In this document: in pieces, positions 42,237 to 50,519 of the stretch
How the letters are laid out: every line of letters begins with the position of its first letter
Numbering within the stretch: position 1 is the first letter of the stretch
Assembly: GCA_945936135.1 (NCBI GenBank)
Contig: CAMESG010000004.1
Span: 1-50,519, forward strand
Length of the DNA: 50,519 nt
Direction of reading: 5' to 3'
Source of the DNA: an uncultured Mollicutes bacterium
GTDB taxonomy: Bacteria; Bacillota_I; Bacilli_A; RFN20; CAG-826
Made by a program: the position numbers and the translations under genes
Notes under the pieces: generated by a model
Told to the model about the DNA's origin: nothing
The model's input: only the letters and a program-made list of their open reading frames with translations
Database searches by the model: none

Positions 42237-43631
42237 ATGAACAAAGCAAAACGCAGAGAGACGTTCCGTCGCATTGGGGCGATTCTTCTCATCGGGTTGA
42301 TTGGGCAAATCGCCTGGGCGATCGAGAATAACTTCATCAACCTTTGGGTTTTCAGCCAATCCCACGATGTCAATCACATCAATTGGATGACGACGGCAAG
42401 CGCGGTCGTCGCCACATTGACGACCTTCTTTATGGGCGCGCTATCCGACCGCTTGGGCAAACGAAGGATCTTCATTGCCTTGGGCTATACGATTTGGGGC
42501 GTCTTTGTCTTCCTCTTTGGGGTTGCTTCCTTCTCTAACATGGAAGCCATCGCCGGAGGGGATCCCGCCACGGCCATTCTTCTTGTTGGCGTCTTCAACG
42601 TCATTATCGATTGTTTGATGACCTTCTTTGGCTCGACGAGCAATGACGCGGCTTTCAATGCCTTCGTCACCGATCAAACCTCCGAACAAGAACGGCCTCT
42701 ACTTGAAAGCGTTCTTTCGGTGATGCCCTTGCTTTCGTTGGCGATCATGATGCTCATTGGCATGGCGCTAGGCATTCCTGACGCGAGCAAGAGCGCCGCA
42801 GAAATCGCAGGACCATGGTTCATCTTCTTCTTGATCTTTGGAATTCTCATAACGTCGATCGGCATTCTTAGTTTTTTCTTCTTGCCAAAGGACAACGTCA
42901 TTCCCAACCGCGAAGAAAACTACCTCAAGCATATGGTTTCGGGTTTTCGGCCAAAGAACGTTAAGAAGCATCCTTCGTTCTACATCGCCTTGTTGGCCTT
43001 CCTTTGCTTCAACATCGCCGTCGATGCCTTCATGCCCTATTTCATGGTCTATTTCCAAGGCATGAGCACTTTCTCCGGGATGAACTTCTACATTGCCCTG
43101 GGATCCATCATGGGCGCTGGATCCATCTTCGTTATCGTTCTCGGCCTCTTCATGGAGAAAATCGGAAAGATGAACGTGTTGATTCCTGCGATCGTCTTGA
43201 TGGCAGGAGGCGCATTGGGCCTCTATTTCTCGGGCGATAACTTCGCGTTTTGCATTGTTTTCGGCATTCTCTTGATCGCAGGTTACCTTGTCGGGACAGC
43301 TTCTTTAAGCGCCGAAATCCGCGATCATACTCCCCAGCAAGAAGTCGGCGCCTTTCAAAGCGCCCGCATGGTTTTCGCGGTCATGGTCCCGATGGTCATC
43401 GGCAGCAACATCTCCAATGCCGTTTTCGCCCATGAGTACACGGATGAATTCGGGCAACTCGTCAAAGCACCGGACCGCAATATGTGGTTGGTCGTCCTTG
43501 TGGCAGCTATCGTTGCGCTAGCCCCCATCCTTTGGCTTCTCCTTTATACGAAAAAGAGCAAACTCGCCAATCTCACGGCACCCCAGCAAAACAAAGAAAT
43601 GGGCACCGAAACTGATGAATCAGCAAAATAA
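42237..43631 (+). CDS. MFS transporter
   Basis: The 464-residue membrane protein has 12 helices and the MFS A-motif-like loop GALSDRLGKRRIF between helices 2 and 3. It resembles SLC45/sugar-type transporters in general layout; the substrate is not known. No Shine-Dalgarno precedes ATG. Confidence 0.9.
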   Translation: MNKAKRRETFRRIGAILLIGLIGQIAWAIENNFINLWVFSQSHDVNHINWMTTASAVVATLTTFFMGALSDRLGKRRIFIALGYTIWGVFVFLFGVASFSNMEAIAGGDPATAILLVGVFNVIIDCLMTFFGSTSNDAAFNAFVTDQTSEQERPLLESVLSVMPLLSLAIMMLIGMALGIPDASKSAAEIAGPWFIFFLIFGILITSIGILSFFFLPKDNVIPNREENYLKHMVSGFRPKNVKKHPSFYIALLAFLCFNIAVDAFMPYFMVYFQGMSTFSGMNFYIALGSIMGAGSIFVIVLGLFMEKIGKMNVLIPAIVLMAGGALGLYFSGDNFAFCIVFGILLIAGYLVGTASLSAEIRDHTPQQEVGAFQSARMVFAVMVPMVIGSNISNAVFAHEYTDEFGQLVKAPDRNMWLVVLVAAIVALAPILWLLLYTKKSKLANLTAPQQNKEMGTETDESAK

Positions 43632-45202: not shown

Positions 45203-46159
45203 ATGAACTTCTTAACAAAAAGTTTCGAAATCCCAACGTTGTTCTTTCTCGCCCTCGCTTCTGGCTCCACCGCAGGCTTCATCGTCCACGATTCGTTAAG
45301 AGGAACGCTCTTCACCGTCGAGGGAGACGCTTCGGCCTTCGCCATGGATAACAAAGCCGCTTACGAGAACTACGAAAAGGCCAAGAAAGCCGGCAAGGAT
45401 CTTGCAACGGCATTGACGCCAAGCGAATTGATCTCCGTCGCCTATACCAAACTTGCCCAACACGAATACATCTATAGCGAAGCGCTTGGGAGTTCGAAAG
45501 CCATGGGCTTGGTTGATCAAACGATCCAATCACGTGCCATCAGGGACAAGGACGACTACTTTGAGGAATCGAATTCCTTCTCCAACTTCGTAAAAATCTA
45601 CAATCGCATGTATCAAACCGGCGATGAAACCACAAAATATTGGGGCAGTTCACCTTCCTATCAAGGATATACACCGGTAAAAGTAACCAACGAGACGTAC
45701 GCCGAGGAGATGGGGCGAACCATCAGCGAATCCTTGATCTATCTCGTTTCTCCCAAAACCGAAGGAGACACCGATCGCTCGGGTTTGGGTCTTACAAAGG
45801 TCACCAAGACTGGATCGAATCTTCAAATCGACTTCGAAGCGAATCCCGCGAAATCGACGCTTCGCTACGTAAAGCAGATGAAGACGATCTCGAACTTGAA
45901 GGAATACCCATCCTTCTATTACGTCCATCTGCAAGTCGTTTGCACCCAAGATCTCGATCTGCTGTACATGAAATCCTTCGAGAAATACCAAGCGACCCTT
46001 GCAAGCGGAATCGGATCCGCCTGCGAAGGCACAATGACGACGATCTATCAAATCCCAAGCAATCCACCCGTCCTTCCTAAGCCCGATGCACCAAGCGAAG
46101 CCTACGCGTCCTCGCAAGACGATCTGCTCAAGAAATACGGATACGACAACATTCAGTAA
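45203..46159 (+). CDS. Membrane-anchored extracytoplasmic protein, partner of the giant repeat protein
   Basis: The product has 318 residues from the ATG backed by AAAAGGAGAAA; the frame upstream to 45167 lacks a ribosome site. One hydrophobic segment near residues 10-30 (PTLFFLALASGSTAGFIV) has no cleavable pattern, so it is probably an anchor with the rest outside. The external part is mixed alpha/beta with no family I know, and ends in a Pro-rich linker (PSNPPVLPKPDAPSEA) and a short acidic tail. The giant gene follows after 15 bases, so both are made together. Confidence 0.8.
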   Translation: MNFLTKSFEIPTLFFLALASGSTAGFIVHDSLRGTLFTVEGDASAFAMDNKAAYENYEKAKKAGKDLATALTPSELISVAYTKLAQHEYIYSEALGSSKAMGLVDQTIQSRAIRDKDDYFEESNSFSNFVKIYNRMYQTGDETTKYWGSSPSYQGYTPVKVTNETYAEEMGRTISESLIYLVSPKTEGDTDRSGLGLTKVTKTGSNLQIDFEANPAKSTLRYVKQMKTISNLKEYPSFYYVHLQVVCTQDLDLLYMKSFEKYQATLASGIGSACEGTMTTIYQIPSNPPVLPKPDAPSEAYASSQDDLLKKYGYDNIQ

Positions 46160-46174
46160 CAAAGGAGTCATTCT

Positions 46175-49100
46175 ATGAAAACCAACCAGAAAAAACGAAA
46201 CGAAAAAGAAACGTCGCGGAAGCATGCACTGCTTCTTCTTACGGCTTTCTTTGGGACCTTCGGCGTTTCGGCCGGCACGGTCTTCTTCATGCTTCCGCAA
46301 CGTACGATCACCGATTTGCTCACGACCTCCGACGATCCGAACATCGACCCTCCAACCCCTTCGCAAGCCTTCATCAACAAGCTTCTTGAAAGCGCAAAGA
46401 GCGGTCTCACTTTGGACGTCAATCACTTGGATTTCAATATCCCGGGGGCCGTTAAAAACGTCGAAGGAACCGAAGTCACCACGGAAAACCGCATCACGAA
46501 TATCGAAGGAAAAAACCCGCAAATCGCCCTTAGTTTGGAAGAACTTTCCTTGCAAGGCATCAATCTCCGCGCCGAACTTCCGCTCGCCTACAATGGCTTG
46601 AAGCGCGAAGTAGACCTTGGTTTGATGGGCAACGGCGAGGTTGACAAGAACCTCTACATCGGCATCTCCGACATTGATGGAGACGCCAAGGATTGGACCG
46701 CGGGGTATCAAGTTGACGTTAAGCGTTATACCTCGGACATCATCGACGAAGAAACCGGCGGCAAAATCGGTTATGAATATGGTCGTCTTTCCTTCATCTT
46801 GGAAGACATCCTCGAAATCTTGTCGAAGGGCGGTATCAACCTCAATACCTACGGCAAGATCGGCGGGGCGATCACGGGATCAAACGGCAGCGGCGCTTCT
46901 TCCGATGCCTCTTCCTCCTCTTCCATCAATACTCAAGACCTTCTTGACGCGTTAAACAACATTCAAGAAAGCGTCTATGAAGGCAACACCTACTTCACCT
47001 TGAATTTGCCTTTGGGCGGCATTGAATTTTCCATCGGCATGGGCGCGGATAAGGACTTCAATCTTTCATCCGTCGACATCCCATCCAAATTAAGCACCGA
47101 AACCACCCAAAAGCTCTCCGCGACAAACGACATGACGCTCGCTTTGAACGCAGATGTTTATACGGTCGCTAGCGGCGAGTCCTACGACTGGGTCGTTCCC
47201 GAAGCCTGGAAGTCCTACAAGAAACTCGATGACTCTCTAGCGCTCTTTGAACGCGTTGCCAATCTCGTCGTCGATCCTAAATTTGGTTTGCAACTTGATG
47301 TCGAAATGATTCATTCTAAGAGCGGAAAAGAAGGCACCTTCACGACTTTCTCTCGAAAGCCGATGGAGCAAGCCGCCCGCCTTTCTTTGAATGGCGATGT
47401 CGACCTTTCCCTCAATACGTTGGATGGCGCGATCACGGGCGTGAACTTCAACTCCGCCGCTGCAGATTTGGCCTTCACCCAGCTTCAAAAAGATGAAAAT
47501 GGCAAGTGGGTCGATAGCACGGCCAAGCAGATGCTTTCCGCCTACATCGATAATACCGATTCGAGCAACGCTGCCGCCTACATCAATGTCGCGGATACCT
47601 TGAAAGTCCGCACCACCAAGTCCGTTTTGGACGAAGTCATCGGCAAATTCCGCTCCGAAACCGTCCCAAGCGATCCGGTTGAAGGCGCTCAAGAAGAAAA
47701 GACCAACATCCAAATCGACAAAGTCGTTGACACCTTGACCCAAGTCATTGGCATCCTCCAAGGGCAAGACAACTTCGAAACCCCTGCGCTTCTTGCCGGC
47801 TTGAAAGAAAAGCATTACGAAGTAATCGTTGATATGATCGACAAGGTCGAAATCGACGACAACAAGATCCAAATCGATCTTTCCCTCGCCGGTCTTGGCT
47901 TCAACGATGCGATGATCTCCGTGATCCTCAATGGTTCCGCTGATCATAGCCTTGCCTCGATCGAAATCACTTCCTTGAAACTCAATACGTTGGAATTGAA
48001 CCTCGCTTTGAAGACCACCGGCCATACCGCCAAGACCCCGGAAGAAATGGAAACCATGAACGAATGGGCTTTCATGAACAAACTCCCGACCTTGATGGAC
48101 CCGATCGCCGAGATCGCGAAGAACAAACAAATCTCCCTCGGCTTGCAAGGAACCGTTTCCGACCGTGGCACGATGGACGTCTATCAAGACGTCGCCAAAA
48201 CCGCCGGCATGGACATCAACGGAAGCATCAATCTCGACTTCTCCAAAGAAAAGGCCGAAGGCGCTACGAATCCGGCCCTCCTTGATGGTGCCATCGATTT
48301 GACCCTCACCGAGAAGAACGCTTCTTACTACCAAGATCACAACATCAAATTGGACGTTGCAAATAGCGCAGAAGATCTGACTTCCACGCAAAACGCGGTT
48401 TATTTGCACTATGATTCGAGCAATCCCGCCAATAGCGCAGACGTTGAAAACCGTACCAATCCCACCAATAAGGATGGCGTCAACGGCAAGTTCTACATTA
48501 CTGATGCCGCCGATATCCTTGAAGGCCTTATCAACACCATCACGGGTGCCGATGATCGTTTTGGACGCATCTCGCGCTTGATGGCTGCTCCTGCCGAAGC
48601 GACCTTCTTAAGCGAACTCACCTCGGGCAACTACGTCTCCGCGATTGCCAATTACAGCATCCTCAAAGAAGCCACAATCGGCGAACACCGCGACGTCATC
48701 GTCCTCAATGGTTCTGCTCTTGGCATGGATTCGGATTTGACCCTTGCCCTCAACTTCTCTTCGGATGCGTCGACCTTTGATAACATCGAGATCGGCCTCT
48801 CCACCGGCAAAGACGAAGCAACCGCTACGGATATTTCCTTCAAGCTTTCCTTCGACAAGGTTACCGCCGATACCTCCTTCTCCTGCTTGGACCACGAAGC
48901 TTCCTACGATGATTTCTCGGGCATCTTAAGCCTTGCTGATTACGCTGTTTCGACTGCCCTCCTTGGCTTAGAAAACGGCGAAGGTGTCTCGACTTACGAT
49001 ATTGAAGGCATCGCGAAAATCGCTCTTGGCAACTACGAAGCCGAATTGGCGCGTGCTTCCATGCAAGCTAGCGTTGAAGGCGCGAGAATCAAGCTCCATG

Positions 49101-49900
49101 GCGAACTCAATGATATCCCCGTCATCCGCGGCATCAACGCGCCGGATGATGAACGCTACTTCCGTCCGTTGGAAATCGGTGGCAACCGCGATGCCTCCTT
49201 CTACTACTATTCGGATGGTTTAGAGAATGAGGATGGCGAATTGACCACCGAGTTGCTCATGACCCGCCATAGCGATTACGGTCGCCTTATGGACGTCAAT
49301 GATTCCGTGAAGCTCAACAAAGAAGGCGCCTTCAAGGACGATGCCTTGAGCTACCTCCTCCAATACTTCCTCGGCGTGGATGAATCGCTCTTCGCAGACA
49401 ATGGCAACGAAACCGTCGCTGAACCTTCTACGGACGCGAAAGCCTTCCACGTTGAAGATCTCTACCGCGGCTTCACCAAGACGGTTGATGGCGATGACGT
49501 CAGCTTCGAAATCCGCGTAAATCTCAATTCCTTGATCGGCGTTTCGATTCTCAATGACATCGTTCTACGTATCGATGGCGGTACCTTCGGCGGCTTCAAA
49601 GCGCTCAATGGCATCCACGTTGATACCGGCGTTTCCCTCTTCGGAAGCGAAGGCGGACGCATCAAACTCGTGGGTGTTTCCTTAGATCTTTATTTGAACA
49701 ACCTAAGAGATGGCGAATACCTCAATGGTTGGGAGAAAGGCGAAGAAGCCTTCGAGGCGAACTTCCTCCACTTCGAAAACGATGGAAGTTACAAGGAAGT
49801 CGGCGTCTATGACGATGCCAGCCGCACCAAAGCCTGGCATCATGGCGTTGATCCAGAGAACGCGGGACACCGTAACTACTACCTTGGCTTAAGCCATTAA
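46175..49900 (+). CDS. Giant N-terminally anchored surface protein with four internal repeats
   Basis: The 1241-residue product has a basic N-terminus, one membrane segment at about 18-40 and then only extracytoplasmic sequence, with no LPxTG or C-terminal helix. It is rich in alternating hydrophobic strands. Four divergent repeats can be aligned by eye: unit openings at about residues 128 (GINLRAELPL), 403 (LSLNGDVDLSL), 679 (MDINGSINLDF) and 962 (ASMQASVEGAR), spaced 275, 276 and 283. Each continues with a G-K/R-hydrophobic-D-x-hydrophobic helix (206, 467, 771, about 1020-1065) and a LxLNxxLG strand block (277, 570, 845, 1116). A Ser-rich linker sits near 236-250. AAAGGAG precedes ATG. The strand-rich repeats could be a lipid-binding groove or adhesin; neither is shown. 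Confidence 0.85.
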   Translation: MKTNQKKRNEKETSRKHALLLLTAFFGTFGVSAGTVFFMLPQRTITDLLTTSDDPNIDPPTPSQAFINKLLESAKSGLTLDVNHLDFNIPGAVKNVEGTEVTTENRITNIEGKNPQIALSLEELSLQGINLRAELPLAYNGLKREVDLGLMGNGEVDKNLYIGISDIDGDAKDWTAGYQVDVKRYTSDIIDEETGGKIGYEYGRLSFILEDILEILSKGGINLNTYGKIGGAITGSNGSGASSDASSSSSINTQDLLDALNNIQESVYEGNTYFTLNLPLGGIEFSIGMGADKDFNLSSVDIPSKLSTETTQKLSATNDMTLALNADVYTVASGESYDWVVPEAWKSYKKLDDSLALFERVANLVVDPKFGLQLDVEMIHSKSGKEGTFTTFSRKPMEQAARLSLNGDVDLSLNTLDGAITGVNFNSAAADLAFTQLQKDENGKWVDSTAKQMLSAYIDNTDSSNAAAYINVADTLKVRTTKSVLDEVIGKFRSETVPSDPVEGAQEEKTNIQIDKVVDTLTQVIGILQGQDNFETPALLAGLKEKHYEVIVDMIDKVEIDDNKIQIDLSLAGLGFNDAMISVILNGSADHSLASIEITSLKLNTLELNLALKTTGHTAKTPEEMETMNEWAFMNKLPTLMDPIAEIAKNKQISLGLQGTVSDRGTMDVYQDVAKTAGMDINGSINLDFSKEKAEGATNPALLDGAIDLTLTEKNASYYQDHNIKLDVANSAEDLTSTQNAVYLHYDSSNPANSADVENRTNPTNKDGVNGKFYITDAADILEGLINTITGADDRFGRISRLMAAPAEATFLSELTSGNYVSAIANYSILKEATIGEHRDVIVLNGSALGMDSDLTLALNFSSDASTFDNIEIGLSTGKDEATATDISFKLSFDKVTADTSFSCLDHEASYDDFSGILSLADYAVSTALLGLENGEGVSTYDIEGIAKIALGNYEAELARASMQASVEGARIKLHGELNDIPVIRGINAPDDERYFRPLEIGGNRDASFYYYSDGLENEDGELTTELLMTRHSDYGRLMDVNDSVKLNKEGAFKDDALSYLLQYFLGVDESLFADNGNETVAEPSTDAKAFHVEDLYRGFTKTVDGDDVSFEIRVNLNSLIGVSILNDIVLRIDGGTFGGFKALNGIHVDTGVSLFGSEGGRIKLVGVSLDLYLNNLRDGEYLNGWEKGEEAFEANFLHFENDGSYKEVGVYDDASRTKAWHHGVDPENAGHRNYYLGLSH

Positions 49901-49914
49901 TCCAACGCTTCTAT

Positions 49915-49944
49915 GGGTCCGGATTTATCCGGGCCCTTTCTTTT
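49915..49944 (+). terminator. Terminator of the surface module
   Basis: GGGTCCGGA pairs with TCCGGGCCC (nine pairs, one G-U) around TTTA, followed by TTTCTTTT. Confidence 0.9.
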
Positions 49945-49970: not shown

Positions 49971-49984
49971 CTTACAATTGTAAG
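49971..49984. promoter_or_regulatory. Perfect palindrome over the start of the XRE gene
   Basis: CTTACAATTGTAAG is a perfect 14-base palindrome ending one base before the ATG. It contains TACAAT (49973-49978), a possible -10 located 7 bases before the start codon. The position suggests autoregulation of a leaderless gene. Confidence 0.6.
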
Positions 49985-49985
49985 C

Positions 49986-50519
49986 ATGGAAAACATCTCA
50001 GCCATCGTTGGAGCCAATCTATCTGCCCTTCGCAAAGCCAAGGGGCTCACCCAGCAAGAGCTTGCCAGCGAAATCCATTACAGCGACAAATCCATCTCCA
50101 AATGGGAGCTTGGCTATTCCTGCCCAAGCGTCGACGTTTTGATGGATTTCGGCGCGTATTTTGGAGTTTCTCTTGAATACCTCGTCTCCACCCACGAAGA
50201 AGGCGAAGCCGCGGATGCCATCGCTCCGATCGAAGAGACGAAAAATAGCCCGTTGATGACAAATAAATTCGTCATTCTTGGCCTCACTATGGCTGTTGTT
50301 ATCCTCGCGGATCTATCTTTGTTCTTCACCCAATACCTCTTCACGGGCAAAGAGATTCCACTCGAAGCCTGGTCCATCTTCCCTTGGGTTGTCCCGATCT
50401 GCTCGATCCTCGCGGCCTTGGAGGTCAAATTCTTCTTCCGCGACCGGTTCTGGATCACCATTCTCCTTTCCGTTTCCGTGTGGAGCCTATTGCTTTGTCT
50501 CTGCCTCCATCAAGCCGTT
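49986..50519 (+). CDS. XRE-family regulator with C-terminal membrane helices (cut by window end)
   Basis: The open frame gives 178 residues and continues past the window. Residues 6-62 form an HTH_3 domain (LRKAKGLTQQELASEIHYSDKSISKWELG). After an acidic linker, three hydrophobic segments follow (LGLTMAVVILADLSLFF, WVVPICSILAALEV, WITILLSVSVWSLLLCLCL). DNA-binding proteins tied to the membrane in this way are common in Firmicutes and often respond to envelope signals. It could regulate the surface module just upstream, but that is inference. Confidence 0.88.
   Translation, partial: MENISAIVGANLSALRKAKGLTQQELASEIHYSDKSISKWELGYSCPSVDVLMDFGAYFGVSLEYLVSTHEEGEAADAIAPIEETKNSPLMTNKFVILGLTMAVVILADLSLFFTQYLFTGKEIPLEAWSIFPWVVPICSILAALEVKFFFRDRFWITILLSVSVWSLLLCLCLHQAV

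Follow-up and report, generated by a model that had tools for sequence, protein, structure and literature searches.

The window, i.e. the whole stretch of 50,519 nucleotides that was analysed, encodes a giant membrane-anchored protein of 1241 amino acids (hereafter A) which contains four divergent repeats, predicted to adopt the clam-like fold of the LolA, LprG and LprF proteins. The gene directly upstream encodes a smaller protein, S, with one predicted domain of this fold, and a paralogue of A, named B, is encoded just past the window end. With moderate confidence, we propose that S, A and B together make up a tandem array of lipid-binding domains tethered to the cell surface, whose most likely role is lipid acquisition. 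The features of the locus are as follows (Z values are from structural alignments, in which a Z below 8 may, according to the tool's own note, reflect merely a common arrangement).

45203-46159, + strand: S, about 318 amino acids from the ATG at 45203, with an N-terminal transmembrane anchor and one predicted LppX/LprG-like domain (about 45395-46093)
46161-46167, + strand: ribosome-binding site of A, AAAGGAG, located one base past the S stop codon (from the sequence)
46175-49900, + strand: A, giant protein of 1241 amino acids, with a transmembrane anchor and four predicted LolA-like repeats
46223-46297, + strand: N-terminal membrane anchor of A, residues 17-41 approximately (from the sequence; kept in the orthologue alignment)
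46358-47224, + strand: repeat 1, residues 62-350, predicted LolA/LprG-like (LolA Z 10.0; LprG Z 9.1)
47225-48082, + strand: repeat 2, residues 351-636, homologous to repeat 3 over its full length (Csa1B Z 7.4 only)
48083-48916, + strand: repeat 3, residues 637-914, predicted LolA-like (LolA Z 8.3 and 7.9)
48917-49774, + strand: repeat 4, residues 915-1200, predicted LprF-like (LprF Z 8.4; LprG Z 7.7)
49915-49936, + strand: terminator-like hairpin of nine pairs, GGGTCCGGATTTATCCGGGCCC then TTTCTTTT, with a T-run, closing the S-A unit
49986-50519 (gene to 50648), + strand: XRE-type HTH regulator with several predicted transmembrane segments (HTH_3 E 4e-14)

Internal repetition of the giant protein A

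The open reading frame of A is intact and begins with an ATG. The genome that carries it (1.23 Mb) is rated 100% complete, and several close relatives of this genome were sampled from the rumen or other animal gut. A has an orthologue with 60% identity over the full length and more than 20 further relatives. An earlier reading of the DNA, made from the sequence only, had assigned to A an N-terminal membrane anchor and no sorting signal; the anchor is indeed present, with a conserved FGxSAGxTFFLxPQ stretch, and the lack of a sorting signal is consistent with the absence of sortase from the genome.

The same reading had divided A into four divergent repeats, a proposal now confirmed by profile self-alignment and by the order of the elements in the AlphaFold model. 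A comprises four copies of about 285 amino acids, with structural starts at residues 62, 351, 637 and 915, as indicated by the following lines of evidence. First, a profile made from 18 orthologues aligned residues 286-598 with 582-873 (E 7.6e-7), and in a profile made from 42 sequences residues 123-599 matched 422-874 at an offset of one repeat (388 columns; E 4.3e-10); the reversed profiles that served to control for chance repetition gave a best E of 0.13 (42-sequence profile). Second, weaker matches occurred in register at three repeats (109-304 versus 964-1140) and two repeats (125-307 versus 675-878). Third, the global hhalign comparison of repeats 2 and 3 gave an E of 2.7e-11 over 241 columns. 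Repeat 4 is the weakest copy by sequence (E 0.002-0.04; 0.002 against repeat 1 and 0.008 against repeat 2), and its recognition as a copy rests partly on the predicted structure. Fourth, every copy has an LxLNxxLG block, as first noticed in the sequence, and these blocks are equivalent sites: their glycines (G281, G575, G850 and G1122) lie 294, 275 and 272 residues apart, and the last three are invariant in the 18 orthologues. The openings originally placed at residues 128, 403, 679 and 962 gave the correct period but not the starts of the units, each of which begins with the helix at the structural starts given above. Similarly, the G-K/R-x-hydrophobic motif attributed to all copies occurs literally in copies 1 (GRLS) and 3 (GKFY), but not in the other two.

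The view that A has an architecture with no known family also holds. Neither A nor S has a Pfam match above the cut-off, nor one that is consistent across 42 homologues; NCBIfam gave no match to A, B or S, and Pfam likewise covers none of the three. The weak Pfam matches ACP_SdgA_C and DUF4251 were set aside, as they concerned one member each. A has no AsmA/TamB Pfam match, and its matches to PDB sequences were chance ones only (S100A1 and beta-amylase). By sequence, A and S are therefore filed neither in PF03548 (LolA) nor in the other curated families.

Predicted fold of the repeats and of S

As no sequence family matches, the LolA-type fold is assigned from predicted structures. The AlphaFold model of A (residues 50-1241, i.e. 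1192 residues; mean pLDDT 74.8; pTM 0.58) displays the same order of elements four times: a helix, a strand block, two or more helices and a second strand block. LolA, LprG, LprF and RseB structures top the list of VIA-align matches to A. The AF2 model of S (pLDDT 90.6) aligns with LppX (Z 10.9) and LprG (Z 10.6), and Foldseek relates it to LprG with a probability of 1.00. The models of S and of repeats 1, 3 and 4 thus show the layout of the LolA-fold superfamily (CATH 2.50.20, which includes LolA, LolB, LppX, LprG, RseB and EPDR1), namely helix, antiparallel strands, capping helices and antiparallel strands in a curved clam. Repeat 2 is not independently proven, since its best Z (7.4) falls under 8; it is assigned to this fold through its homology to repeat 3. 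These models support the earlier guess of a hydrophobic groove for lipids, since LolA, LprG and LprF are lipid or lipoprotein carriers. The alternation of hydrophobic and polar residues along the strands, a sequence proxy for a hydrophobic pocket inside the curved sheet, is consistent with the guess: it amounts to 2.75 Kyte-Doolittle units over all four repeats of A, as compared to a mean of 1.36 and a maximum of 1.83 in shuffles.

The top Foldseek E-values obtained with the whole 1192-residue model (CPSF160, LptD and porins) were rejected as the noise of a large beta-rich model, with TM-scores of about 0.1 or less. The weak whole-model matches to MTP, lipovitellin and ApoB, which have large beta-sheet lipid cavities, were also discarded as relatives (TM-scores below 0.2, other domain organisation), and a search of a viral structure library returned nothing usable.

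Three groups of known proteins are worth comparing with this system. The mycobacterial lipoproteins LppX, LprG and LprF (LppX_LprAFG) have the clam-like fold predicted for S and repeats 1 and 4 (Z 8-11), and they too are tethered to the outside of the cytoplasmic membrane. However, they are single domains of about 200 amino acids from a bacterium that has a mycolic-acid membrane as its second one, they are not connected to the present sequences by any Pfam match, and the present chains have 4-10 repeats in Bacilli that seemingly possess one membrane. LolA and LolB, the lipoprotein carriers of diderms, have the fold predicted for repeats 1 and 3 (Z 10.0 and 8.3), and LolA is similar in size to the repeat unit of the larger homologues described below, but they are soluble single-domain shuttles of the Lol system. 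Lastly, in the bridge-like proteins with repeating beta-grooves (VPS13, ATG2) and in TamB/AsmA, the length tracks the number of lipid-binding sheet units (PMC7613979). Their unit is an open groove, stacked with the others into a continuous one, whereas the predicted unit of A is a LolA-like sheet capped by helices, and the cavity of A may consequently be split into separate pockets.

Companion gene, neighbourhood and distribution of the family

S is separated from A by 15 bp, and an in-frame TTG (45167) precedes its ATG. Of 39 loci, 36 have a relative of S immediately 5' of the giant gene, for the most part separated from it by no more than 30 bp or slightly overlapping it. S has no sequence similarity to the giant repeats (hhalign probability 0.09%), with which it therefore has only the fold in common. 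In another Bacilli family of the same class (f27), the homologues of A are larger (2.1-2.6 kaa; E 2e-26 with the A profile), with 5-10 repeats of about 181-188 amino acids, and an S domain is fused at their N-terminus; hmmsearch recognised it in six of eight (E 1e-25 to 1e-32), and hhalign gave an E of 1e-22. The occurrence of side-by-side genes in one lineage and of their fusion in another is strong evidence that S and the giant protein work together. Across the whole family the copy numbers of the repeat are 4, 5, 8, 9 and 10, a variation that fits what is expected of a modular array. Two side observations concern S. In a distant genome of the same order (G048), an S-type lipoprotein lacks a giant partner and is flanked by an M6-like peptidase on one side and two ABC exporters on the other (L050:8167-15529). 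Another genome, G108, has two very large open reading frames of 1474 and 1544 amino acids (L120:2431-6852 and L120:8410-13041), one of which adjoins a 425-amino-acid S-type protein matching the S profile in two pieces; these frames are a possible further expansion of the family.

B is a lipoprotein of 1171 amino acids (lipobox LLASC; G000:C4:50747-54259, L003:6748-10260) that begins about 0.85 kb downstream of A. It also has four repeats (residues 100-539 versus 372-792, E 2e-7 by self-alignment). B stands beside A in nearly all genus mates but not in most other genera of the family. Among the 245 genomes of the order, 122 have a detected giant, spread over 23 of 54 genera; for the class, the figure is 40 of 395 genomes. 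In two f27 giants (L106 and L109), sub-cutoff matches to the Listeria-Bacteroides repeat (Flg_new) and to BspA-type LRR_5 lie C-terminal to the LolA-like repeats, so that some larger forms may carry extra surface domains.

The sequence-only reading had offered an adhesin stalk as an alternative, in which the domains would be spacers displaying a binding tip with no lipid cargo. Surface anchoring, the large and variable size of the proteins, the match of repeat 2 to the fold of the staphylococcal surface antigen Csa1B (Z 7.4, thus below 8) and the sub-cutoff C-terminal repeats of the larger homologues are in its favour. Nevertheless, the conservation of A is distributed across all repeats, with peaks within repeats 1 and 4 (the best conserved stretch, residues 980-1039, lies in repeat 4) and not at the C-terminal tip. 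Moreover, A has neither the sortase signal nor the adhesin or stalk domains of the sortase-anchored class, its genome has no sortase, and a stalk leaves the fixed link to the single-domain S unexplained. The alternative found no support, and we regard it as quite improbable.

In 26 of 47 loci examined, a relative of the XRE-type regulator that follows A is part of the cassette or close to it. The start codon of the regulator in the window comes shortly after a perfect palindrome, TTACAATTGTAA (49972-49983), which is possibly an autoregulatory operator of the gene. LolA-fold proteins include sensors (RseB) and enzymes (VioE), and RseB structures match both A (Z 7.8, hence under 8) and S (Z 8.2). 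S and the array might then capture lipid or misfolded components of the envelope and pass a signal, in the manner of RseB, to the membrane-bound regulator. We find such an envelope sensor very improbable, since 4-10 domains are far beyond the need of a sensor, and the regulator may merely control the genes of the cassette; XRE regulators with transmembrane segments are common in Bacillota.

A putative lipid-acquisition array in Bacilli devoid of fatty-acid synthesis

The source genome has no ketoacyl-synthase and possesses a DegV/FakB homologue. Only 15 of the order's 245 genomes gave a ketoacyl-synthase match, and the enzyme is also missing from 17 of 20 further giant-bearing genomes that were tested. 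The only giant-bearing f27 genomes with matches (G435, G523 and G580) have two ketoacyl-synthase domains in a single frame of 800-817 amino acids, which looks unlike an ordinary FabF. As a correlate of the giant, the loss of ketoacyl-synthase was rejected: since nearly the whole order lacks the enzyme, genomes that have a detectable giant cannot be told by it from those that have none, and the loss is background and not a correlation. About half of the genomes of the order have no detectable giant, although nearly all of them lack ketoacyl-synthase, so the array is dispensable for some such lifestyles. In RF39, an order of uncultured Bacilli, fatty-acid synthesis has been lost and exogenous fatty acids are used (PMC6784871).

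Our proposal of a lipid-acquisition array is based on the repeats, the operon-like gene order, the fusion, the predicted fold, the absence of ketoacyl-synthase and the presence of DegV/FakB. The array would comprise one LolA/LppX-like domain from S, four from A and four from B, each being a helix-capped curved beta-sheet whose strands would have one hydrophobic and one polar face, which is how LolA and LprG hold acyl chains. S would act on the outer side of the cytoplasmic membrane, with A and B extending outward through the cell wall. By analogy with the characterised LolA-type clams, which bind hydrophobic ligands in their curved sheet (PMC6363788), the three proteins would bind fatty acids, lysolipids, phospholipids or glycolipids and relay them between the surroundings and the membrane, possibly by hand-over from domain to domain. 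As the organism is unable to synthesise fatty acids, transport would more likely run inward. Several points weigh against this reading: the sensors and enzymes among LolA-fold proteins, the many genomes of the order with no detectable giant, the lack of a constantly linked transporter gene, the uncertain placement of the domains in space (pTM 0.58) and the weak direct fold match of repeat 2.

The main rival, which we consider improbable, is that the array exports or assembles a cell-envelope lipid. It would then carry a glycolipid, a lipoteichoic-type lipid or the acyl chains of lipoproteins away from the membrane, which is the task of LprG and LppX in mycobacteria. Export is the function served by the proteins with the closest solved folds (LppX, LprG, LprF and LolA), and LprG receives triacylglyceride into its own pocket from an MFS transporter (PMC10576003). 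The window has an MFS gene (42237-43631), and such a gene lies in the vicinity of the cassette in 11 of 47 loci; the lone S-type lipoprotein of G048 adjoins two ABC exporters. However, the MFS gene is not constantly linked to the cassette (nor is any other transporter gene in the 47 loci), and sugar-type MFS models match it as well; its presence in only 11 loci led us to drop it as an Rv1410-like partner. Furthermore, an exporter would have no outer membrane as a target: Omp85 (PF01103) and LolA (PF03548) are absent from the complete source genome, with control genomes giving matches, so that the components of the Lol lipoprotein-sorting pathway (LolA and Omp85, with an outer-membrane destination) are lacking. 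Uptake would also benefit a fatty-acid auxotroph more.

Within the lipid-acquisition reading, S, A and B, or the fused chain of 2.1-2.6 kaa, might even constitute a continuous wall-spanning conduit of head-to-tail LolA-type clams for lipid uptake in single-membrane cells. Because the interdomain geometry is uncertain (pTM 0.58), we put forward this conduit as a possibility only, and a rather unlikely one.

A literature search for tandem LolA-type proteins found no description of them. The fold is known. The databases and literature searched contain no apparent description of the tandem array, of its S partner or of its spread among fatty-acid-auxotrophic Bacilli. The LolA fold, known from single-domain carriers, is here predicted to be strung in chains of 4-10 copies. 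Fatty-acid synthesis has disappeared from several lineages of uncultured Bacilli of animal guts, among which the present system is widespread. As its predicted fold has characterised members that bind hydrophobic ligands, the system makes the question of how these bacteria take up lipids across the wall directly testable. If it exists, the conduit would be a lipid-uptake machine feeding bacteria devoid of fatty-acid synthesis, and a lipid-bridge design separate from the VPS13/TamB-type grooves.
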